64,000 nucleotides of DNA from positions 1 through 64,000 of the forward strand of contig MEDZ01000023.1 of NCBI GenBank assembly GCA_001724275.1, in the 5' to 3' direction. Position 1 is the first letter of the stretch. The number at the start of each line of letters is the position of its first letter. Shown here in pieces: positions 2 to 9,664 of the stretch. Source of the stretch: Gemmatimonadetes bacterium SCN 70-22 (GTDB taxonomy: Bacteria; Gemmatimonadota; Gemmatimonadetes; Gemmatimonadales; Gemmatimonadaceae). The notes beneath the pieces were generated by a model. That model searched no databases. It was given only the letters and a program-made list of their open reading frames with translations, and had not been told where the DNA came from. Position numbers and translations under genes: made by a program.

Positions 2-589
2 CCCCCCGCCCCCGACGCCGTCACCGCCGCGTCCCCGGCGCGGCCCGACGGGGCACGTCCGGGCGCCCTCGACGTGACGACGCTCGATACCGCCGCCGCC
101 GCCCAAGCGGCCGCCGCCCAAGCGGCCGCCGCCCAAGCGGCCGCCGCCCAAGCCGCCGCCACCCAAGCCGCCCCCGCCCAAGCCGCCGCCGCCCAAGCGG
201 CCGCCGCCCCGGTCGTCGGGCCGCGCGCGCTCCCCGCCGTCTTCGCGGGGCTGGAGCAGGGGGGGGCGCTGGTGGCGCTGCTCGCGGACGCCGACGGCCT
301 CGTGCTCGCCGGGGAGGCCCGCGACGCGTTCGGGCGCGACCGGTCGGAGGAGCTGGCGGCGGAGCTCGCGGCGCTGTCCGGCGACGCGGCGCGAGCCCTT
401 CGCCAGCTGCACCTCGGGGAGTGGGAGCGCGTGCAGGTGGAGTGCGAGGGGGCGACCCTGGCGCTGGCGCCGGGGGGAGGGGAGACCGTGACCCTCGTCG
501 TGACCGACGCCCGCACGCCGGCAGGGGTCCCGCGGCGCCTCCTCGACCGGGCGCAACGCCAGGCGGCCGCATGGCTGGAGTCGCTGTGA
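2..589 (+). CDS. Roadblock/LC7 domain protein with Ala/Gln repeat (5' partial)
   Basis: The frame is open at the left window edge, so the true start is upstream; an internal GTG at 74 is unlikely to be the real start. The visible part has a Pro/Ala-rich stretch, then seven AAAAQ-type pentapeptides, then a C-terminal domain of about 120 residues with the alternating strand/helix pattern of roadblock/LC7 (MglB-like) proteins. Such proteins dimerise and act as partners or GAPs of small Ras-like GTPases. The GTPase encoded at 965 is the obvious partner, with a second roadblock gene in between. The domain call rests on pattern and context rather than a catalytic motif. Confidence 0.6.
   Translation, partial: PPAPDAVTAASPARPDGARPGALDVTTLDTAAAAQAAAAQAAAAQAAAAQAAATQAAPAQAAAAQAAAAPVVGPRALPAVFAGLEQGGALVALLADADGLVLAGEARDAFGRDRSEELAAELAALSGDAARALRQLHLGEWERVQVECEGATLALAPGGGETVTLVVTDARTPAGVPRRLLDRAQRQAAAWLESL
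92..208 (+). repeat. 15-bp coding minisatellite (AAAAQ repeat)
   Basis: Seven consecutive 15-bp units, plus a partial eighth, encode Ala-Ala-Ala-Ala-Gln with two substituted copies (AAATQ, AAPAQ). The unit is a whole number of codons, so gain or loss of copies keeps the frame. It forms a flexible or helical linker before the roadblock domain. Confidence 0.9.
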
Positions 590-936
590 GCACGCGCCCG
601 CTCGCGCCCTCGGTGGCGAGTCTCGCCCGCTTGCGCGGGGTGCGGGGTGTCCTGCTCACCTCGCTCGACGACGCCATCCCGATCGAGGCGAGCGTGCACG
701 TCGACGTGGATCCCGACGCGCTGGCCGCCTTCGCGGCGGCGCTCTATCGGCGCGCGCACGCGGTGGCGGAGAGCTCCGGCGCGGGAGCGGTGAAACTCGT
801 GTCGCTCGAGGCGTTCGCCGGCCGCCTGGCGGCCGCGGCGCGGGGGACGCTGTTGCTCGTCGTTCTCGCCGAGCGCGAGACCAACTCGGGATTGTTGCGC
901 GTGTCGCTTCAGCGCGCCCTGGAGGAGCTGGCCTGA
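586..936 (+). CDS. Roadblock/LC7 domain protein
   Basis: About 116 residues, essentially one roadblock/LC7 domain. I chose GTG at 586 because it overlaps the upstream TGA as GTGA and has a GGAG motif 5 nt upstream; an in-frame ATG at 571 is the alternative. It is translationally coupled to the preceding roadblock gene and lies 28 nt before the MglA-like GTPase, so it is probably a second regulatory partner of that GTPase. The paired roadblock genes could form a heterodimer (inference). Confidence 0.7.
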
Positions 937-964: not shown

Positions 965-1576
965 ATGCCGATCATCAACTACGCCTCGCGCGAGATCACC
1001 TGCAAGATCGTCTACTACGGCCCGGGGCGGTCGGGGAAGACGACCAACCTGCACTACGTCTACGACCGCGTCCCCGACGCCCGGCGCGGGGCGATGGTGT
1101 CGCTGGCGACCCAGAACGAGCGCACCCTGTTCTTCGACTTCCTCCCCCTCGACCTGGGATCGATCGCCGGATTCCAGACGCGGTTCCAGCTCTACACGGT
1201 CCCCGGGCAGATCTACTACCGCAGCACGCGCAAGCTCGTGCTGTCGGGCGCCGACGGCGTCGTCTTCGTGGCCGACTCGCAGCGACGCCAGCTGGACGAG
1301 AACCTGGAGAGCCTCCGCGACCTGCACGAGGTGCTGGCGGAGCAGGGCGTTGACGCGCGCGGGCTCCCACTCGTCCTCCAGTACAACAAGCAGGACCTGC
1401 CGCGGGAACTCGTGTATCCGGCGGACGAGCTCGATGACGCCCTCAACTTTCGCGGGGTTCCGAGCTTCGCCGCCGATGCCCTGGTGGGAAAGGGAGTCTT
1501 CGAAACGCTGCGCAAGGCGTCGGAGCTCGTGCTCCGCCGGCTGGGCGCGGGCGCCGGCGCGGGCGCTGGGAGATAG
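965..1576 (+). CDS. MglA-like small Ras-type GTPase
   Basis: 203 residues. It has a P-loop G19PGRSGKT26, a TVPGQ motif at 78-82 in place of the usual DxxGQ, and NKQD at 141-144 for guanine recognition. Replacement of the Asp by Thr in the Walker B/switch II region is characteristic of the bacterial MglA family, which sets cell polarity for gliding and type IV pili and is controlled by roadblock-domain MglB proteins. Two such proteins are encoded immediately upstream. A Gly/Ala-rich tail ends the protein. The family is firm, but the polarity role here is inferred. Confidence 0.88.
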
Positions 1577-1579
1577 GAC

Positions 1580-3400
1580 GTGCTCGACGGACGCTTTCGG
1601 TTCGACAACTTCGTGGTCGGCGCCGCCAATCGCCTCGCGGCGACGGCGGCGCGCGCCGTGGCCGAGGCCCCGGGAGCCGCCTACAACCCGCTCTTCATCT
1701 ACAGTTCGTCCGGGCTCGGCAAGACGCACCTGCTCGGCGCCGTCGGGTACCATGCCCGTCAGCTGCATCCCGAGCTCGTCGTGGAGTACCTGACGCTCGA
1801 CGACTTCGTGGCGCAGCTCCACCAGGCGATCGGGACGGGGCGCGCCGACACCTTCAAGCGGCGGTATTCGGGGGTCGGGCTCCTGCTGCTCGACGACGTC
1901 CAGTTCCTCACGGGCCGGGTGGAGACGCAGAGCGAGATCCTGCGGGTCTTCAATGCCCTGCAGGGGAGCGGGCGCCAGATCGTGATGACGTGCGACCGCG
2001 CCCCGACCGAGATCGCCGACGTGGACGAGCGCCTGGTCTCGCGCCTGGCCGGCGGCCTGATCGTCGACGTCGGCCCGCCCGATTACGAGACCCGCGTCGC
2101 GATCCTCCGGAACAAGTGCGCCGAGGGCGAGGTGCGCTTCGCGCCCGGCGTGCTCGAGGAGCTGGCTCGCAGCCCGGCAGGCAATGTCCGTGAGCTGCAA
2201 GGCGCGCTCAACCGGCTGATGGCGCACCAGTCGCTCCTCGATTCCCCGGTGGGCGTGAGCGACGTGTGGCAGGTGCTGGGCAAGGTGCGCGGCGCCGAGC
2301 CGCCGCCGGCCGACGAGTTCGAGCACTTCGTCAGCGACCTGGCCACCACCGTGGCCGCGTCGGTCGAGACGTGGCGCGTGCGCCTGGGCGAGCGCATCGC
2401 GCGCTGGTCGGGCGAGGGGTTCCGCACCGACCGGCTGGAGCGCGAGCTGGCGCGCGCCACGCCCCCCGACGTCGAGGCGCTGGAAGGGGCGTTCGCCACC
2501 GACGTGGAGCGCTTGCGCGCCCTCGAGTCGGAGGCCATTCGCCTCGACCCGCGCCATGCCGGGCTCGCGCTCTTCCGCGACCCGGCCCGCCTGGCCGAGG
2601 CCGAGGACTTCGTCGCACGCGCCCTGGCGACGCACGAGCCGCTCCCGGCCCCGCGCAAGGGATATCGCCTGCAGGACCTGGTGCGCACCTCGCGCAATCG
2701 CATGGCCATCCAGGCGGCGACGCTGGTCACCGAGGCGCCCGGCAGCCGGTACAACCCGCTCGTGATCCACGGCCCTTCCGGGTCGGGCAAGACGCACCTC
2801 GCGCACGCCATCGGGAATGCGCTGCGCCTCCGCGAGGGGGAGGGGCTGCGGGTCGCGTGCCTCAGCGGCGCCGACTTCGTGGACGGGTTGATCGACGCGC
2901 TGCAGCAGGGGACGGTCGAGCGCTGGCGCGCGCGCTACCGCGGCACCGATGTCCTCATCGTCGACGACATCCACGCCTTCGACGGCAAGGAGCGGACGCA
3001 GGACGAGTTCTTCCACCTCTTCAACGTGTTGCAGCAGGCGGGGAAGCAGGTGGTGCTCACGCTCGATCGGCCGCTCGGCGCGCTGGGCGCGTTGCAGCCG
3101 CGGTTGCGCTCGCGCTTCGAGGGCGGGTTGGTCGCGGAGCTGGGGGTCGTCGACGGGGTGGATCGCTGGGGGCGGGGGACCCCGGTCCCCGAAGGCGACG
3201 AAGCGGCGGCACCCACCATCGACGCCATGCTCGACGAGGCGCTCGCGCCCGACCCGGCGCTGGCCGCCGACGCGCACGAGGCCGGCCTCGCCCCCCTGAC
3301 CCAGCCGCCCCCGCCGCTCGACTCCTTCTTCTTCGACGCCGAGAAGATCGTGGCCGAGTGGCCGGGGACCGAGGGGCTGGTCGTGGAGGAGCTCCGCTGA
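1580..3400 (+). CDS. Protein with two tandem DnaA-type AAA+ ATPase domains
   Basis: 606 residues from a GTG start 3 nt after the GTPase stop. Domain 1 (about 5-215) has a DnaA-like Walker A with SGLGKTHL (44-51), Walker B LLLLDDVQFL (101-110), sensor 1 TCDR (137-140), an arginine-finger-like RLVSRLAGG (151-159) and a sensor 2 GNVRELQGALNRL (201-213). A helical linker of about 140 residues follows. Domain 2 (about 360-520) has Walker A GPSGSGKT (398-405), Walker B VLIVDDIHAF (458-467), TLDR (494-497) and LRSRFEGGL (509-517), but no sensor-2 lid. There is no domain IV helix-turn-helix, so it is not a canonical replication initiator. A role as an ATPase switch or scaffold in the GTPase module is inferred. 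Confidence 0.82.
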   Translation: MLDGRFRFDNFVVGAANRLAATAARAVAEAPGAAYNPLFIYSSSGLGKTHLLGAVGYHARQLHPELVVEYLTLDDFVAQLHQAIGTGRADTFKRRYSGVGLLLLDDVQFLTGRVETQSEILRVFNALQGSGRQIVMTCDRAPTEIADVDERLVSRLAGGLIVDVGPPDYETRVAILRNKCAEGEVRFAPGVLEELARSPAGNVRELQGALNRLMAHQSLLDSPVGVSDVWQVLGKVRGAEPPPADEFEHFVSDLATTVAASVETWRVRLGERIARWSGEGFRTDRLERELARATPPDVEALEGAFATDVERLRALESEAIRLDPRHAGLALFRDPARLAEAEDFVARALATHEPLPAPRKGYRLQDLVRTSRNRMAIQAATLVTEAPGSRYNPLVIHGPSGSGKTHLAHAIGNALRLREGEGLRVACLSGADFVDGLIDALQQGTVERWRARYRGTDVLIVDDIHAFDGKERTQDEFFHLFNVLQQAGKQVVLTLDRPLGALGALQPRLRSRFEGGLVAELGVVDGVDRWGRGTPVPEGDEAAAPTIDAMLDEALAPDPALAADAHEAGLAPLTQPPPPLDSFFFDAEKIVAEWPGTEGLVVEELR

Positions 3401-5019
3401 TGGCGATCCGCGGCTCCCTGCGCGAGGCCTCGCTCCCCGACGTCCTGCAGCTGCTGGCCATGGGGAAGAAGAGCGGCTGCCTGAGCGTCACGCACAAGCA
3501 CTCGTTCGGCAACATCTACTTCGACCAGGGGCGCATCAGCTTCGCCTCGATCGTGAACCGGCGCGACCGGCTGGGCGACCTGCTGGTCAAGAACGGGCTC
3601 ATCTCCCCGGCGCAGCTCGAGGCGGCCATCGCCCTCCAGGGACGCGCGCCCGAGCGCAAGCTGGGCGAGATCCTCATCGCCGAGCACATGCTCGCGCGCG
3701 AGGAGCTGCATCAGTACATCAAGCACCAGATCGAGGAGGCGGTCTACTTCCTCTTCACCTGGACGCAGGGGACGTTCTCGTTCGAGGCCGACGTGCGCCC
3801 CGACGCGCAGGACATCGTGGTCTCGATCAACCCGGAGTCGCTCCTGCTGGAGGGGGCACGCCGGGTGGACGAGTGGAGCCTGATCGAGAAGAAGATCCCC
3901 ACCTTCGACCTGATCTTCGCCCTCGACCGCGAGCACCTGGGCGGGAGCGAGGTGGTCCTCACCCCGGAGCAGGAGCTGCTCGTGCCGCTGCTCGACGGGC
4001 GCCGCGACGTGAGCGCGATGGTCGACGAGTCGGGGCTGGGCGAATTCGAGGTGGGCAAGGCGATCTTCGGCCTCATCACCGCCGGATTCGTGCACCGGGT
4101 GGGACGGACGCGCGCCCCCGCGCAGGTCAGCAACGAGGCGCGGGTGGCCGAGCACCGCAACCTGGGGGTCGCGTTCTACAAGACCGGGATGCTCGACGAG
4201 GCGGTGCGCGAGTTCCGCCGTGTCACCGAGCTCAGTCCCGGTGACGAGCACGGGGAGTTCCTCCTGGGGCTGCTCGCCCTGCGGCAGGGGCACCTCGACG
4301 AGGCGGTACGCACGCTGCGCGCCGCTGCCGCGCGCCCCGGGCCGCCCCGCGGTGCCACGTTCCTGAACCTCGCGCATGCGCTCGCGCGGTCCGGGCGCCT
4401 CGACGAGGCCCGGCAGGCGCTCGCGCGCGCCGAGCAGCTCCTCCCGCAGGATCCCGCCGTGCAGCTGGCGGTGGCGGTCCTGGCGCTGCGGCGGCACGAC
4501 GTGGCCGGGGCCGATGCGGCGCTGCGCCAAGCGGCAGGGCTGGCCGGGACGCGGGGGCGCCCGGCCGCCTGGTTCCACTACGCCGGACTCGTGGCCGCCA
4601 TCCTCGGCGACATCGATCGGGCCGTCGCCCTCCTCAGCGAAGGGGTCACCGTGCATCCGCATTCGGCGGTCCTGCTCAACAACCTCGCCGCCGCGCTCGA
4701 GCGCCGCGGGCGCTACGCCGAGGCGGCCGCCATCGTGGAGCGCGGGCAGCTCGAGGACCCGACGCTCCCGCAGCTGCACAAGAATGCGGGCGACCTGCAC
4801 TACCGCGCCGGCCGCTACGACGAAGCCCTGGAGTGCTACCAGCGCGCGGTGCGCGTGGCGCCCGACCTCGGCGGCGACGTCTGGCTCAAGCTGGGCAACA
4901 TCCGGTTCCGGCGACGGGAGCGCGACGAGGCGCTGAAGTGCTGGGAACGATCGCTCGCCCTCGCTCCCGACAACCCGATGGCGCGGAACAACATCGATAC
5001 GGCGCGGCGGCTCGCCTGA
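3400..5019 (+). CDS. DUF4388 (PATAN-like) protein with C-terminal TPR repeats
   Basis: 539 residues; the ATG at 3400 overlaps the preceding TGA as TGATG. The N-terminus (about 1-240) carries a DUF4388/PATAN-type domain, recognisable by its opening SLREASLPDVLQLLAMGKKSG and a following GNIYFDQGRISFA. The C-terminal half is a tetratricopeptide array of about eight helical pairs. DUF4388 proteins are common in gliding or chemosensory loci of Myxococcota-like bacteria and are thought to be adaptor domains. Position between the GTPase/AAA+ genes and cheD-cheB supports an adaptor role (inference). Confidence 0.8.
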   Translation: MAIRGSLREASLPDVLQLLAMGKKSGCLSVTHKHSFGNIYFDQGRISFASIVNRRDRLGDLLVKNGLISPAQLEAAIALQGRAPERKLGEILIAEHMLAREELHQYIKHQIEEAVYFLFTWTQGTFSFEADVRPDAQDIVVSINPESLLLEGARRVDEWSLIEKKIPTFDLIFALDREHLGGSEVVLTPEQELLVPLLDGRRDVSAMVDESGLGEFEVGKAIFGLITAGFVHRVGRTRAPAQVSNEARVAEHRNLGVAFYKTGMLDEAVREFRRVTELSPGDEHGEFLLGLLALRQGHLDEAVRTLRAAAARPGPPRGATFLNLAHALARSGRLDEARQALARAEQLLPQDPAVQLAVAVLALRRHDVAGADAALRQAAGLAGTRGRPAAWFHYAGLVAAILGDIDRAVALLSEGVTVHPHSAVLLNNLAAALERRGRYAEAAAIVERGQLEDPTLPQLHKNAGDLHYRAGRYDEALECYQRAVRVAPDLGGDVWLKLGNIRFRRRERDEALKCWERSLALAPDNPMARNNIDTARRLA

Positions 5020-5021
5020 CG

Positions 5022-5522
5022 ATGAGCGACATCTCGCCTTCCCCGCTCGAACTCCACGTCAACGTGGGGCAGGCGGCCGTGCGCCGTGACCACGGCGTCC
5101 TGTCGTGCATCGGGCTCGGCTCGTGCGTGGCGCTGATCCTCTACGATCGCGCGGCCCGCGTCGGGGCCGTCGCCCACATCCTGCTGCCCAACGAGGCCCT
5201 CTCGCGCGCGCGCGGGGGGCCGGCCAAGTACGCGAGCACCGCCGTCTCCTACCTGCTGGACGAGATGCGCGCGATCGGGGCCGTCGAGGCGCCCGACGCC
5301 CGGCTGGTGGGCGGCGCGAGCATGTTCACCGGCATCCTCAACGGCGCCGGGGTCAACATGGGCGAGCGCAACGTGCAGGCGACGCGGCGCGCGCTCGCCG
5401 CCGTGGGCGTGCCGATCATCGGCGAGGAGGTCGGCGGGAACCATGGACGCAGCGTCTTCCTCGACGTGGCCACGGGCGTGGTGCGCGTGACGTCGATCCG
5501 CCATGCCGAACGCATCCTGTAG
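5022..5522 (+). CDS. cheD: Chemoreceptor glutamine deamidase CheD
   Basis: 166 residues. CheD deamidates or de-esterifies receptor glutamines. The catalytic cysteine is C35 in GLGSC and the partner histidine is H52 in AHILLP. Conserved GGASMF, GERNV and GGNHGRSVFLD blocks follow, and length is normal for the family. The gene begins 2 nt after the DUF4388 stop and overlaps cheB by 20 nt, so expression is coupled. No receptor or CheA is visible in the window, so these probably lie upstream or elsewhere. Confidence 0.93.
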   Translation: MSDISPSPLELHVNVGQAAVRRDHGVLSCIGLGSCVALILYDRAARVGAVAHILLPNEALSRARGGPAKYASTAVSYLLDEMRAIGAVEAPDARLVGGASMFTGILNGAGVNMGERNVQATRRALAAVGVPIIGEEVGGNHGRSVFLDVATGVVRVTSIRHAERIL

Positions 5523-6579
5523 TCCGTACCGCGTGCTGGTCGTGGACGACTCGCCGTTCATCCGGCGCGTCGTGCGTGACGTGATCGCCGGGGCCCCCGA
5601 CTTCCAGGTGGTCGGGGAGGCCGGCGATGGGCACGAGGCGATCGGCCAGGTGCACGCCCTCGCGCCGGACATCGTGACCCTGGACGTGCGGATGCCCGGA
5701 CTGGACGGGCTGTCGGCGTTAGGCTACCTGATGAGCGAGGCGCCCTGCCCGGTCGTGATGCTGTCGGCCCTGGACGACGGGGGGGACACGACGATGCGCG
5801 CGCTCGAACTCGGCGCCGTCGACTTCGTCCGCAAGCCCTCGCAGGGGGACTCCCTCGACCTGGCGACGCTGCGCGAACGGCTGCTGGGGGCGCTGCGCAC
5901 CGCGATGCTCGCGCGCTACCGTTCGGTCCCCGTGCTGGCACGCGCGCGCGGGGCGCCGCCCCGCCCCCCCGCCGCTGGGGAGGGGAAGGGGGCGACGCAC
6001 GTCGTGGTGGTGGCGGCCTCCACCGGCGGGCCGCGCGCGCTTGCCGAGATCATCCCCTCGCTCCCCCCCATCCGGGCGGCCGTCGTGGTGGCGCAGCACA
6101 TGCCCTCCGGCTTCACCGAGAGCCTCGCCCGCCGTCTCGACACCCTCGCGGCGATGCCGGTTCGCGAAGCGCGAGACGAGGAGGCGCTGGTGGGCGGGTG
6201 CATCTATGTCGCGCCGGGGGGGCGCCACACGACGATCGAGGGACCGCCGTCGGCCCCGCGCCTCCGCGTGCGGTCCGGCTTCCCGGTGCACGGCGTGGCC
6301 CCGGCCGCCGATCTCCTGTTCGCCAGTGCGGCCGACGTCTTCGCCGCCCGGAGCGTGGCCGTCGTCCTCACCGGGATGGGGCATGATGGCGCGGCGGGGG
6401 CGCGACGCGTGCGCGACGCGGGGGGCATCGTCGTCGTGCAGGACGAATCGACCTCCATCGTCTTCGGGATGCCCCAAGCCGCGCTGGCCGCCGCCCACGA
6501 GGTCGCGTCCCTCTCCGGGCTGGCGGCGGCCATCAGCCGCGCCCTCCGCTCGCGGGGGTGCGAGATGAGCGACGCATGA
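5503..6579 (+). CDS. cheB: Chemotaxis response regulator protein-glutamate methylesterase CheB
   Basis: 358 residues. The N-terminal receiver has acidic D15/D16, phospho-acceptor D61 and K111. The C-terminal methylesterase has the catalytic triad S173 (ASTGGP), H199 (QHMPSGF) and D295 (TGMGHDGA). All key residues are present, so it should be active in removing receptor methyl esters when phosphorylated by CheA. It starts inside the end of cheD. It contains the first CGTTAGGC octamer of the window (5717-5724), encoding Ala-Leu-Gly with a rare TTA codon. Confidence 0.95.
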   Translation: MPNASCSPYRVLVVDDSPFIRRVVRDVIAGAPDFQVVGEAGDGHEAIGQVHALAPDIVTLDVRMPGLDGLSALGYLMSEAPCPVVMLSALDDGGDTTMRALELGAVDFVRKPSQGDSLDLATLRERLLGALRTAMLARYRSVPVLARARGAPPRPPAAGEGKGATHVVVVAASTGGPRALAEIIPSLPPIRAAVVVAQHMPSGFTESLARRLDTLAAMPVREARDEEALVGGCIYVAPGGRHTTIEGPPSAPRLRVRSGFPVHGVAPAADLLFASAADVFAARSVAVVLTGMGHDGAAGARRVRDAGGIVVVQDESTSIVFGMPQAALAAAHEVASLSGLAAAISRALRSRGCEMSDA

Positions 6580-6614: not shown

Positions 6615-6686
6615 GGTGCCACGGAGTCCGCCAGCTGCCGCGCGGTCCGTGACGAGTCGAACGCCAGAGCGGTCTAGTTGGTGACC

Positions 6687-7232
6687 ATGCCTGCCACCCT
6701 ACCCCCTCCCAGCGACCGTGCGACGGACGCCGCCTCCGATGGCGCCGGCGTCGCGCCATCCCTGGTGCGGTTCCGCGATCGCGTCCGCGCGCGCAGCGGG
6801 ATGGCCGAGCTGCTCGCCTTCCGGGTGGGCGCGGAGCGATATGCCTTCGACGTGCGGGCGCTCGACGAGGCGCTCGACGCGCCGCCGATCGATCGCGTCG
6901 CGGCACACGAGACGTCGATCCTCGCCGGGCTCTTGCGCCTGTCGGGGGTGACCATTCCCGTCTTCGATGCGGGGCGCCTGCTCGGCGCCGGTGCGTCGCA
7001 GGGAGGGCAGGTGCTGGTGTTGCGCGGCGCGTCTCGCCGCATGGCGCTCCTCGTGGACGACGTGGACGACGTCGTGGCCCTCGACCTCGGGGGCGTGAGG
7101 CCGCCGCCGTTCGAGGCCTCGGACGACCTCCTCCTCGGCGTCGTCTGGGACGGCGCGTCGCTGACGTCGATCCTCGACGCACGCGCCATCGTCAGCGCCT
7201 GCCAGCAGCGCCCAACCGGAGGGAGCGCATGA
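6687..7232 (+). CDS. CheW-like adaptor domain protein
   Basis: About 181 residues from ATG 6687; TTG 6678 and GTG 6681 are in-frame alternatives. After a low-complexity N-terminus of about 35 residues there is a CheW-like fold: LLAFRVGAERYAFDV, then GLLRLSGVTIPVFDAGRLL, then MALLVDDVDDVV. These match strand patterns of CheW but are divergent, so it may be a specialised coupling protein. It overlaps the next cheW gene by 4 nt (ATGA). Confidence 0.72.
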   Translation: MPATLPPPSDRATDAASDGAGVAPSLVRFRDRVRARSGMAELLAFRVGAERYAFDVRALDEALDAPPIDRVAAHETSILAGLLRLSGVTIPVFDAGRLLGAGASQGGQVLVLRGASRRMALLVDDVDDVVALDLGGVRPPPFEASDDLLLGVVWDGASLTSILDARAIVSACQQRPTGGSA

Positions 7233-7738
7233 ACACGAACGAGCAGGTGCTGCGGCTCGTGACGTTCGGAGTGGGGAACGCCTCGTATGCCGCCGACATC
7301 GCGTGCGTGGAGCGGGTCCTCCGCCACGAAGGGGTGCATGCGATTCCCGGCATGCCGTCGTGGATGGAAGGGGTGATCGCGTACCAGGGGCGCGTCGTGC
7401 CGGTGGTGGACTTGCGCCGGCGCTTCGGCCTCGCGGAGCGATCCGGGGGCGCCGGTGGGCGTCTCCTCGTCTTCACGTGGGGCGACGACGCGATCGCGGC
7501 GGCCGTCGACCGGGTCGTCGACGTGCGGACCATCGCCCCCGGGGAGCTAGCCCCCCCGCCGCGCCTGGCCAGCGGCCCGTCCGCTGCCTTCCTGCGCGGC
7601 ATGGTGCGGCAGGGCGAGGCGATGGTGGTAGTCCTCGACCCCATGCGCCTCCTCTCGGATGAGGAGCAGGCGTCGCTTCACGACTGCATCGATGCACCCG
7701 CGGTCGAGGCGGCGGACGGTCGTGCGCCCGATGCCTGA
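7229..7738 (+). CDS. cheW: Chemotaxis coupling protein CheW
   Basis: 169 residues with the standard CheW order: LVTFGVGNASYAADI, a MPSWMEGVIAYQGRVVPVVDLRRRF core motif region, and DRVVDVRTI. It would bridge receptors and a CheA kinase. Overlap of 4 nt upstream and 8 nt downstream places it in one operon with the neighbouring CheW-like and TPR genes. Two adjacent CheW-type genes suggest a split coupling function or two signalling arrays. Confidence 0.88.
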   Translation: MNTNEQVLRLVTFGVGNASYAADIACVERVLRHEGVHAIPGMPSWMEGVIAYQGRVVPVVDLRRRFGLAERSGGAGGRLLVFTWGDDAIAAAVDRVVDVRTIAPGELAPPPRLASGPSAAFLRGMVRQGEAMVVVLDPMRLLSDEEQASLHDCIDAPAVEAADGRAPDA

Positions 7739-8651
7739 GGCGCCCTCCTCCCTCGCGACCGCCGGCCCCTTGCGCGAGCAGTTCGACGAGCTGCGCTCGT
7801 CGCTGGGTGCGCCGGACGCGGCGGAGCGCCGCGAGGCGCTCAAGGCGGACATCATCGCCCTCTACAGGGCGATCGAGTGTGAGCTGACCGACCTGGCTGC
7901 GCTCAAGGACGACGTGAAGGGGCTCGTGCAGCAGTGGAAATCGCTCGACGCCCTCGATGCGTCGCCCGCACCCGCTTCCGTGGTCCACGCACCCTCGGCC
8001 GCCACCACCGCTCCCGACGCGCCCCACGCCGCGCCGCCGACTCGCGCCGACCACCTCAATGCGTCCACGTTCCTCGAGAAGGGGTGGAGCCTCCTCTCGC
8101 TCGGGGACCACGCGGGCGCCGAGCAGGCGTTGCTCCGCGCGCTGGAGCTCTCGCCGAACGACCCGCAGGGAATATCGCTCCTGGGGTGGGCGCAGATGCT
8201 CCAGGCCAAGTACGACGACGCGCTGCTGAATTTCCAGAAGGTCCTGATGCGCGAGCCGCAGAACTCGCTCGCGCGCATCAATGTCGGCTACATCTGCCTC
8301 AAGAAGCAGATCTTCGGCGAGGCCATCGAGCACCTCTCGAAGGCGATCCGGCTCGACAACGACCGCAAGGCGACGCTCTACGCCCACTACTACCTCGGGC
8401 TCCTGTACCTGGAGCGGGAGATGTACGAGGACGCACAGAACTTCCTGAAGAAGGCGCTCGCGCTGGGTCCCAACCTGATCGAGGCGTACTACGAGCTGGG
8501 GCGCGCCATGTACTTTGCGGGTGACCGCGAGGGTGCGATGGCCGCGTGGCGCGACGGTGCGCGCGCCAACAAGTTCAGTCCATGGGGGAAGCGCTGCGCC
8601 GAATTGCTGAGCGAGGTAGAAGGTGGAGGTTCGCCGCCGCGCTCGTCGTAG
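7731..8651 (+). CDS. TPR repeat protein of the chemosensory operon
   Basis: 306 residues from ATG 7731, which overlaps the cheW stop. The N-terminus (about 15-75) is charged and predicted helical. A Pro/Ala linker follows, then five or so tetratricopeptide motifs from about residue 105, with typical G-W/Y-L-F-A-P spacing. TPR arrays bind partner proteins, and the position suggests a scaffold for the Che/GTPase system. No signal peptide is seen. No enzymatic motif is visible. Confidence 0.75.
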   Translation: MPEAPSSLATAGPLREQFDELRSSLGAPDAAERREALKADIIALYRAIECELTDLAALKDDVKGLVQQWKSLDALDASPAPASVVHAPSAATTAPDAPHAAPPTRADHLNASTFLEKGWSLLSLGDHAGAEQALLRALELSPNDPQGISLLGWAQMLQAKYDDALLNFQKVLMREPQNSLARINVGYICLKKQIFGEAIEHLSKAIRLDNDRKATLYAHYYLGLLYLEREMYEDAQNFLKKALALGPNLIEAYYELGRAMYFAGDREGAMAAWRDGARANKFSPWGKRCAELLSEVEGGGSPPRSS

Positions 8652-9664
8652 CCGCGGCCCTCGTCCCCGCCAGCGCCGCCACGGCACAGGGCCAGCCGCT
8701 CCGCCTGCAGGGCGGGCGATTCACCGTCGAGGCGAGCCGGGGCGATGAGACGCTCGCCCGATCCATCCTCGCCGCCTCGGTCCGCGGCGACACCTTTCCC
8801 GGGCTCCCCCGGCCGCGCGCCCCGCTGGTGATCCAGGTGGCCCCCGATGCGGCGACCTTCCGCGCCTGGGCGGGCGATGGGGCACCGGAGTGGGGGGCGG
8901 CGTTCGCCATCCCGGAGGAGGGGCGGATCCTGATGCAGGGGCGGCGTGCCTCGTCGCAGGCCGGGGACCCCATGCACGTCCTCCGGCACGAGCTGGCCCA
9001 CCTGGCGCTCCACGAATACCTGGGCGACCTCCCGCCGCGCTGGTTCGACGAGGGGTACGCGAGCTACGCGGCGGGTGAGTGGGACCGCGAGCAGGTGATC
9101 GCGACCAACCTGGCCCTCGCCGTGCGTGGGGTCCCCTCGCTGGCGGCCCTCGATTCGGGGTTCTACGCCGGCGCGTCGAGGGCCGACGCGTCGTACGCCT
9201 TCGCCTTCCGCGCGGTGGCCGAGCTGGCGGAGCTGGACCCGCAGCGCGGGCTGACGCTCCTGCTGGGGTACTGGCGCGAGGAGGGCGACTTCGAACGGGC
9301 GCTCCGCCGGGCGTACGGGCTCACGCAGGGCGAGTTCGAGCGGCGCTTTCGCGACCGGACGCGCCGGCGCTACGGGGCACTCGCCCTCTTCGCCGACGTC
9401 ACGATCGCCGCGCTGCTGATCGTCTTCGTGGCGGGCCCCTTCTATGTAATCCGGCGGCGGCGCGACAAGGCTCGCCTCGCGGCGATGCGGGCGGCCGACG
9501 CCGAGGCCGAGCGGCGCGAGCGGGCGAGCACGATCGACCTGCTCCTGCGGCAGGACGTCCCCGGGGGGGACGGAACCCCGTCCTCGCTCGACGCGCCCCC
9601 CGACGCGCCCCCTGATGCAGCCCCTGGCGGCGAGCGAGAGGAGCCAACATTGCGGGATGATTAA
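8582..9664 (+). CDS. Membrane-anchored peptidase-MA-like zinc metallopeptidase
   Basis: 360 residues. A basic N-region followed by a hydrophobic stretch ending SAATAQG (about 30-37) looks like a signal peptide. The zinc motif HELAH is at 136-140, with a glutamate in FDEGYA (157) as likely third ligand, as in the gluzincin peptidase-MA family. A hydrophobic helix at 267-289 and a charged tail suggest a C-terminal membrane anchor with the catalytic part outside the cytoplasm. ATG 8582 lies 70 nt inside the upstream TPR gene. Substrate unknown. Confidence 0.72.
   Translation: MGEALRRIAERGRRWRFAAALVVAAALVPASAATAQGQPLRLQGGRFTVEASRGDETLARSILAASVRGDTFPGLPRPRAPLVIQVAPDAATFRAWAGDGAPEWGAAFAIPEEGRILMQGRRASSQAGDPMHVLRHELAHLALHEYLGDLPPRWFDEGYASYAAGEWDREQVIATNLALAVRGVPSLAALDSGFYAGASRADASYAFAFRAVAELAELDPQRGLTLLLGYWREEGDFERALRRAYGLTQGEFERRFRDRTRRRYGALALFADVTIAALLIVFVAGPFYVIRRRRDKARLAAMRAADAEAERRERASTIDLLLRQDVPGGDGTPSSLDAPPDAPPDAAPGGEREEPTLRDD

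Follow-up and report, generated by a model that had tools for sequence, protein, structure and literature searches.

The window, a 64,000-nt stretch of DNA that starts at the beginning of a contig of Gemmatimonadetes bacterium SCN 70-22, opens with a series of genes that all lie on the forward strand. Two roadblock (MglB-like) genes come first (2..589, its 5' end cut by the contig start, and 580..936, Robl_LC7 28.5 bits against a cut-off of 23), followed by a gene for an MglA-like small GTPase of 203 aa with the P-loop GRSGKTT and a TVPGQ motif (965..1576). Three nucleotides later, as a sequence-only reading of this DNA had stated, comes a gene for a two-headed DnaA-type AAA+ protein, here called TWIN (1580..3400; 606 aa, GTG start, TGA stop). 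Its stop shares 1 nt with the ATG of the next gene, which encodes a 539-aa protein made up of DUF4388 (PATAN-like), an MshEN-like module and TPRs, referred to here as DUF4388-TPR (3400..5019). Genes for CheD (5022..5522), CheB with receiver and methylesterase (5503..6579), two CheW proteins (6678..7232 and 7229..7738) and a peptidase-MA-superfamily protein (8546..9664) follow.

Two DnaA-type heads, a linker and a tail

The TWIN open reading frame is real and not a chance one, as Pfam Bac_DnaA matches it in two stretches (341 bits, E 1.3e-102). Pfam, AlphaFold2 and Foldseek concur on two DnaA-like ATPase heads fused in one chain, the arrangement that the sequence-only reading had proposed. AlphaFold2, given a 42-sequence alignment, returned a pLDDT above 90 for head 1, head 2 and the linker and about 45 for the tail, with a pTM of 0.48 for the full protein, in which the mutual placement of the heads is not predicted. 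The top Foldseek match is domain III of B. subtilis DnaA, and DnaA domain III structures rank ahead of Hda and two-ring AAA+ proteins.

Head 1 with its lid (residues 2-236; 1583..2287) has the complete ATP site that had been claimed for it, with Walker A K48, Walker B D105/D106, box VII Arg R151, Arg finger R155 and sensor 2 R204. The head 2 core (residues 359-523; 2654..3148) likewise has the expected Walker A (K404), Walker B (D462/D463) and Arg finger (R512), together with box VII Arg R508. Head 2 had also been described as having lost its lid, which is correct for this lineage and some others but does not hold as a family trait, orthologues often keeping 84-102 residues there; judged from the alignment, the family's defining degeneration is that of the ATP site of head 2 and not that of the lid. 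The sequence-only reading overlooked the conserved C-terminal tail (584-606) and the helical linker (about 247-352). The linker (residues 247-352; 2318..2635), whose first helix reads DEFxxFL, reached a pLDDT of 91 and a pTM of 0.74 when folded alone by AlphaFold2. A search for it found no Pfam family and no sequence relative in the PDB, and a fold assignment was dropped when the best VIA-align Z was 4.0 and all matches were common helical bundles.

The tail (residues 584-606; 3329..3397), ending ...EKIVAEWPGTEGLVVEELR, is conserved through the phylum and predicted to be disordered alone, as would be expected of a docking peptide. Its consensus is EKxVWxWPDxxxRLIEELR (core EKxVxxWPxxxRxxEE), and all 52 aligned sequences long enough to cover the Trp have it. 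Scanned across 48 genomes, a degenerate DNA pattern of the tail core matched 20 times, never more than once in a genome and always at the end of a TWIN gene just ahead of DUF4388-TPR (reversed control, 0). The next gene starts within or directly after the tail codons, with TGATG in most cases, and the final -EE- is often coded GAGGAG, which may double as the ribosome-binding site of that gene, so that part of the tail conservation would have another cause. The tail is nevertheless kept where the next start lies 8-36 nt away (L037, L042, L099 and L114). We rejected a mere ribosome-binding site as the explanation of the E-K/W-P part, which has no such use; for -EE- it is a possible second use.

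The evidence supports the earlier proposal that TWIN is no replication initiator. TWIN matches neither Bac_DnaA_C, the domain IV helix-turn-helix, nor DnaA_N, which is domain I, in Pfam, and the chain opens directly at head 1; the canonical DnaA of the same genome, serving as positive control, scored 90.5 and 36.5 bits with these models. That canonical dnaA is a separate gene (G000:C3), TWIN thus not being the sole dnaA-type gene, and TWIN itself stands in a signalling neighbourhood. The sequence-only reading had named beforehand a DnaA C-terminal helix-turn-helix in homologues as the observation that would speak against it; domain IV is absent among the 25 commonest families matched by 42 TWIN orthologues. 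The NCBIfam DnaA equivalog model TIGR00362 does score TWIN above its cut-off (449 bits versus 344), because the scores of the two heads add up, and automatic pipelines and public annotation may therefore name it DnaA or dnaA.

Across 56 distinct aligned TWIN sequences the duties of DnaA appear to be divided between the heads. In head 1 the Walker A Lys (K48) and first Walker B Asp (D105) are each present in 56/56 and the sensor 2 Arg in 55/56. The hydrophobic residue of the DnaA H-motif is lost from head 1, mostly to His, Thr, Glu or Ala (H81 here), and the B-motif position is Glu or Gln in 55/56 (E115 here). In head 2 the H-motif (V211) position is Ile or Val in 55/56 and the B-motif (R245) position Arg in 52/56, while R450 and R452, of an extra W-R-x-R, and the box VII Arg R508 and Arg finger R512 are invariant (56/56 each). 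The P-loop Lys of head 2 is gone from all 25 of 25 deep-clade members. By this alignment the losses are complementary, H- and B-motif residues being lost in head 1 and kept in head 2. Canonical DnaA is itself variable at the R245 position (Arg in 5/18), which weakens the change to Glu as proof that head 1 lost ssDNA binding; the H-motif change is the better sequence evidence. In DnaA the Arg finger R285 sits opposite the ATP site and touches the ATP bound to the adjoining protomer; R281 has an oligomer-stabilising role (PMC5742627). The simplest reading of the pattern is that the preserved duty of head 2 would be to present its Arg finger to the ATP of head 1.

A constant partner in a variable neighbourhood

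The constant partner of TWIN is the DUF4388-TPR gene, and the pair is the core of the locus. DUF4388-TPR is the next gene after TWIN or its tail at every assessable locus, and of 74 genomes, which are not independent of one another, 69 have both tail and DUF4388-TPR and 5 have neither. Within DUF4388, which we take to be PATAN, lies a module of the MshEN-type, c-di-GMP-binding-like kind (partner residues 57-110; 3568..3729), scored by the NCBIfam MshE-type c-di-GMP motif model NF053729 at 55.3 bits against a cut-off of 38. By model score the window partner has the 53-residue tandem motif RLGxx..G..L..L..Q, with an imperfect motif II (K-L-G, His replacing the second Gly). The model matches all 33 partners of proteins that carry two heads, one head or only linker and tail, and none of the 10 partners of the microproteins described below, which are without exactly 53 aligned residues, the MshEN-like insert; the MshEN domain is 53 residues long (PMC5013675). 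To go by these model matches, the DUF4388/MshEN/TPR partner probably senses c-di-GMP.

The surroundings of this pair differ between lineages. In Gemmatimonadales the cluster reads CheW-CheY-CheA-CheC-TPR-DUF4388TPR-roadblock-roadblock-(roadblock)-MglA-TWIN and continues from TWIN as DUF4388TPR-(CheR)-CheD-CheB-CheW-CheW-TPR-peptidase, where CheY, CheA and CheC are named from sequence features and a CheA search. Deep-branching families have the order TWIN-DUF4388TPR-peptidase MA-sigma54 response regulator. The sequence-only reading had drawn a role in polarity or array assembly from the adjacent MglA and had called for a survey of the same fusion beside mglA. Of the 23 Gemmatimonadales loci assessed, 22 have MglA directly upstream; it is adjacent in family f4 (G045) and at L045 as well, and for these members the suggestion has support. 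It does not carry over to the deep clade, where L045 is the sole exception to the absence of an adjacent MglA, or to some reduced lineages, and MglA is likewise not beside TWIN at L091, L109, L111/L120 and L112; linkage with mglA does not extend throughout the family. At least one MglA-like gene occurs somewhere in every genome tested, and no CheA was found in 13 of the 15 TWIN-carrying genomes tested from deep family f5. The MglA/Che link was gained or lost regionally. A PilT family ATPase of the type IV pilus is present in 74 of 74 genomes; the presumed target machine is therefore everywhere, yet useless as a discriminator.

The genes missing upstream of the window, which starts at the contig start, lie at the end of contig C22 of the same genome (L119, G000:C22:38000-52245). 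That end holds CheW, CheY, CheA, CheC, a 926-aa TPR protein, DUF4388-TPR and the start of a TPR-roadblock protein, ordered as in G002, and the roadblock gene at 1-589 of the window is apparently split by the contig break. CheR, present in relatives such as L083 (12388-13353), is absent here between DUF4388-TPR and CheD (5019-5022), and a further roadblock gene that precedes MglA in L083 (7760-8356) is missing here (936-965). The peptidase-MA gene directly follows DUF4388-TPR in deep Gemmatimonadota and stands behind the che genes here (8546-9664), which suggests that the che genes came in between the two. It is probably an ancestral neighbour and possibly the third member of an ancestral operon. 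At L113 (G151:C1) a 1000-aa frame on the minus strand (1606-4608) joins a Bac_DnaA head and a peptidase-MA domain, with TPR in another frame, and is either a fusion or an assembly frameshift. A more distant MglA-like GTPase (about 60% identical) is found away from the cluster in most of the 74 genomes, here at G000:C41:25982-26458. Many MglA matches in families f4-f5 contain one TGA in the matched stretch, a recurrent feature that may reflect alignments overrunning the stop.

Spread and erosion of the family

Orthologues with the TWIN layout occur throughout Gemmatimonadota: at a threshold of E 1e-60, 231 of the 395 genomes sampled have a match, though a handful of the weakest matches may be ordinary DnaA and the count misses reduced members. 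Loci L062-L077 and L080, picked up when genome contigs were scanned, proved to be ordinary DnaA or DnaA-like sequences with a single head and do not belong to the family. In a tree of single heads, all head 2 sequences form one group (support 100/99), as do all head 1 sequences (68/97), so that one ancestral tandem explains all; the TWIN family is ancient and Gemmatimonadota-wide. Outside the phylum, a systematic search for the linker, with a positive control, covered the phyla Acidobacteriota (that of G399, Terriglobia) and Zixiibacteriota (that of G398) and found it in 0 of 297 and 0 of 132 genomes, respectively. Open-licence papers on DnaA with MglA, on DUF4388 with MglA and on DnaA-like proteins held no description of TWIN, and the family is apparently undescribed in that literature. 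Head 1 is under purifying selection (pN 0.051 vs pS 0.373); head 2 evolves fast.

Genomes of a single bacterial family show a series of reductions. In G122 the protein is head 1-linker-tail (507 aa), and in its congeners G019 and G125 head 1 is also without its lid (407 and 395 aa). G018 has one head, linker and tail, G017 linker and tail only (about 190 aa), and G077 one degenerate head and the tail (283 aa). In genera g5, g7 and g36 (10/10 genomes) the product is a microprotein of 60-86 aa that retains just the tail and the opening helix of the linker (xEFxxFLxxL); an independent search by profile also picked up the helix remnant weakly, where it was expected, in G006, G008 and G051. The reduced genomes had at first seemed to lack TWIN. 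Close pairs of microprotein genes show purifying selection, with pN/pS of about 0.05/0.23 and 0.16/0.50 (ratio about 0.2-0.4).

A tree of the partner unites the microprotein genomes in one clade and places the remaining reductions separately; G077 was left out of this tree, but TWIN is full-length in its congeners G083 and G102. On these sequences the AAA+ heads appear to have been eroded at least four times, with the tail kept every time. The heads are dispensable; the tail beside DUF4388-TPR always stays. Because the microprotein genomes are one clade, their loss of the heads and of MshEN is one joint event and not independent replication, and as a link between the two it is suggestive in these sequences. 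G017 lost its heads and kept the MshEN of its partner, which suggests that head loss can precede MshEN loss.

Mechanism, alternatives and known systems

We tentatively propose, at just short of an even chance, that TWIN is an ATP-gated scaffold that docks DUF4388-TPR and feeds motility or polarity control where MglA and Che proteins are present. Head 1 would bind and hydrolyse ATP, and head 2, often no longer an ATPase, would give its Arg finger to the ATP site of head 1, within a chain or between chains as DnaA protomers do. ATP in head 1 would decide whether chains assemble. The linker and C-terminal tail would protrude and dock the DUF4388/MshEN/TPR protein, with assembly presenting many copies of both, and c-di-GMP would tune the partner. 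In Gemmatimonadales the complex would be wired to MglA/MglB and the CheA chemosensory cluster, and elsewhere the pair would work without them. The output in Gemmatimonadales would most likely be type IV pilus polarity or activity; as the deep clade is mostly without CheA and an adjacent MglA, a motility output would not be general. Microprotein lineages would keep the docking but neither the ATP switch nor the partner's c-di-GMP module. More tentatively again, we envisage a DnaA motor that was doubled within a single chain, one copy becoming the ATPase half and the other the arginine-finger/contact half. The product would be an ATP-gated assembly switch for a c-di-GMP-sensing, Ras-GTPase-linked surface-motility complex, with its output in a short docking tail, which survives on its own as a microprotein in some lineages.

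The direct target of TWIN might instead be the neighbouring MglA, for which it would serve as a GAP, an exchange factor or a partner in localisation, with DUF4388-TPR as a downstream effector. The frequency of MglA directly upstream in Gemmatimonadales, and its adjacency in f4 and at L045, speak for such a role, and the MglA-like gene carried by every tested genome would permit action in trans. Yet the TWIN gene persists without an adjacent MglA in the deep clade and at the further loci named above, always with DUF4388-TPR, and we consider this reading unlikely. Less likely still is that head 2 binds ssDNA or RNA through a retained DnaA ssDNA-contact surface, with head 1 as its ATPase. The residues kept at the V211 and R245 positions and the invariant R450 and R452 would fit such a surface, but the R245 position varies in canonical DnaA and the same residues lie near DnaA protomer interfaces, where they may serve protein contacts. 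The lack of domain IV, the signalling neighbourhood and the complete loss of head 2 in several lineages that keep tail and partner also argue against it.

We find it quite improbable that TWIN is an Hda-like regulator whose Arg fingers act on canonical DnaA-ATP and couple surface life to replication. TWIN does consist of domain III only, with intact fingers, and Hda is among its fold matches; the Hda model TIGR03420, however, gives it 131.5 bits, below the cut-off of 194.8, and head-less versions keep the tail and the neighbourhood. Nor is there a clamp-binding extension at the N-terminus: inspection found no such motif in TWIN, which begins VLDGRFRFDNFVVG directly in head 1, and no conserved N-terminal extension in its orthologues. 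The least credible proposal, that TWIN is a decaying dnaA duplicate without function, could draw on the fast-evolving head 2 and on repeated head loss, but is opposed by phylum-wide retention, by the invariant R508 and R512 and by the selection on head 1 and on the microproteins.

Almost all that is known of DnaA-type AAA+ proteins concerns replication and its control. Gemmatimonadota, which live in soil and water, reused the DnaA fold in tandem, without the DNA-binding domain, inside a signalling gene cluster. With its ATP site and Arg finger split over two heads, TWIN would be an asymmetric AAA+ switch open to direct testing, and nature's own reductions, from the two-headed protein down to a tail-only microprotein, point to the part that would bear the output. 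The ATP-gated scaffold that we favour is also a pointer to how Gemmatimonadota may control type IV pili, in a phylum whose motility biology is little known. For annotation the family carries a warning that the DnaA equivalog model would label TWIN as DnaA.

Several known systems resemble parts of this arrangement. SgmX is a TPR protein, and we know of no DnaA-like ATPase in the Myxococcus xanthus MglA-MglB module for which it is an effector. That module (PMC7668184) shares with the locus a Ras-like GTPase with roadblock proteins, there acting on type IV pili. It differs in that the MglA link here is not universal. The partner recalls the cyanobacterial PATAN (PatA N-terminal) response regulators, in which a PATAN-type domain with an alpha-helical insertion acts on type IV pili and is accompanied by chemosensory genes (PMC7690835). 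Those are PATAN-CheY proteins, whereas here DUF4388 with an MshEN-like insert and TPRs is paired with a two-headed ATPase. Hda is single-headed, with an N-terminal clamp-binding motif; like Hda/HdaA, the regulatory inactivator of DnaA, TWIN is a DnaA-type AAA+ protein without domain IV that retains its Arg finger, but it falls under the curated Hda cut-off and has two heads. With DnaA domain III, its top match in both sequence and fold, TWIN shares the AAA+ fold, Walker A/B, box VII, Arg finger and sensor 2; it differs in its doubled head, its lack of domains I and IV, an added linker and tail, a signalling neighbourhood and duties split between the heads. TWIN fails the defining features of DnaA and of Hda, yet it is built like part of a DnaA oligomer and probably works in the same way as such a part.
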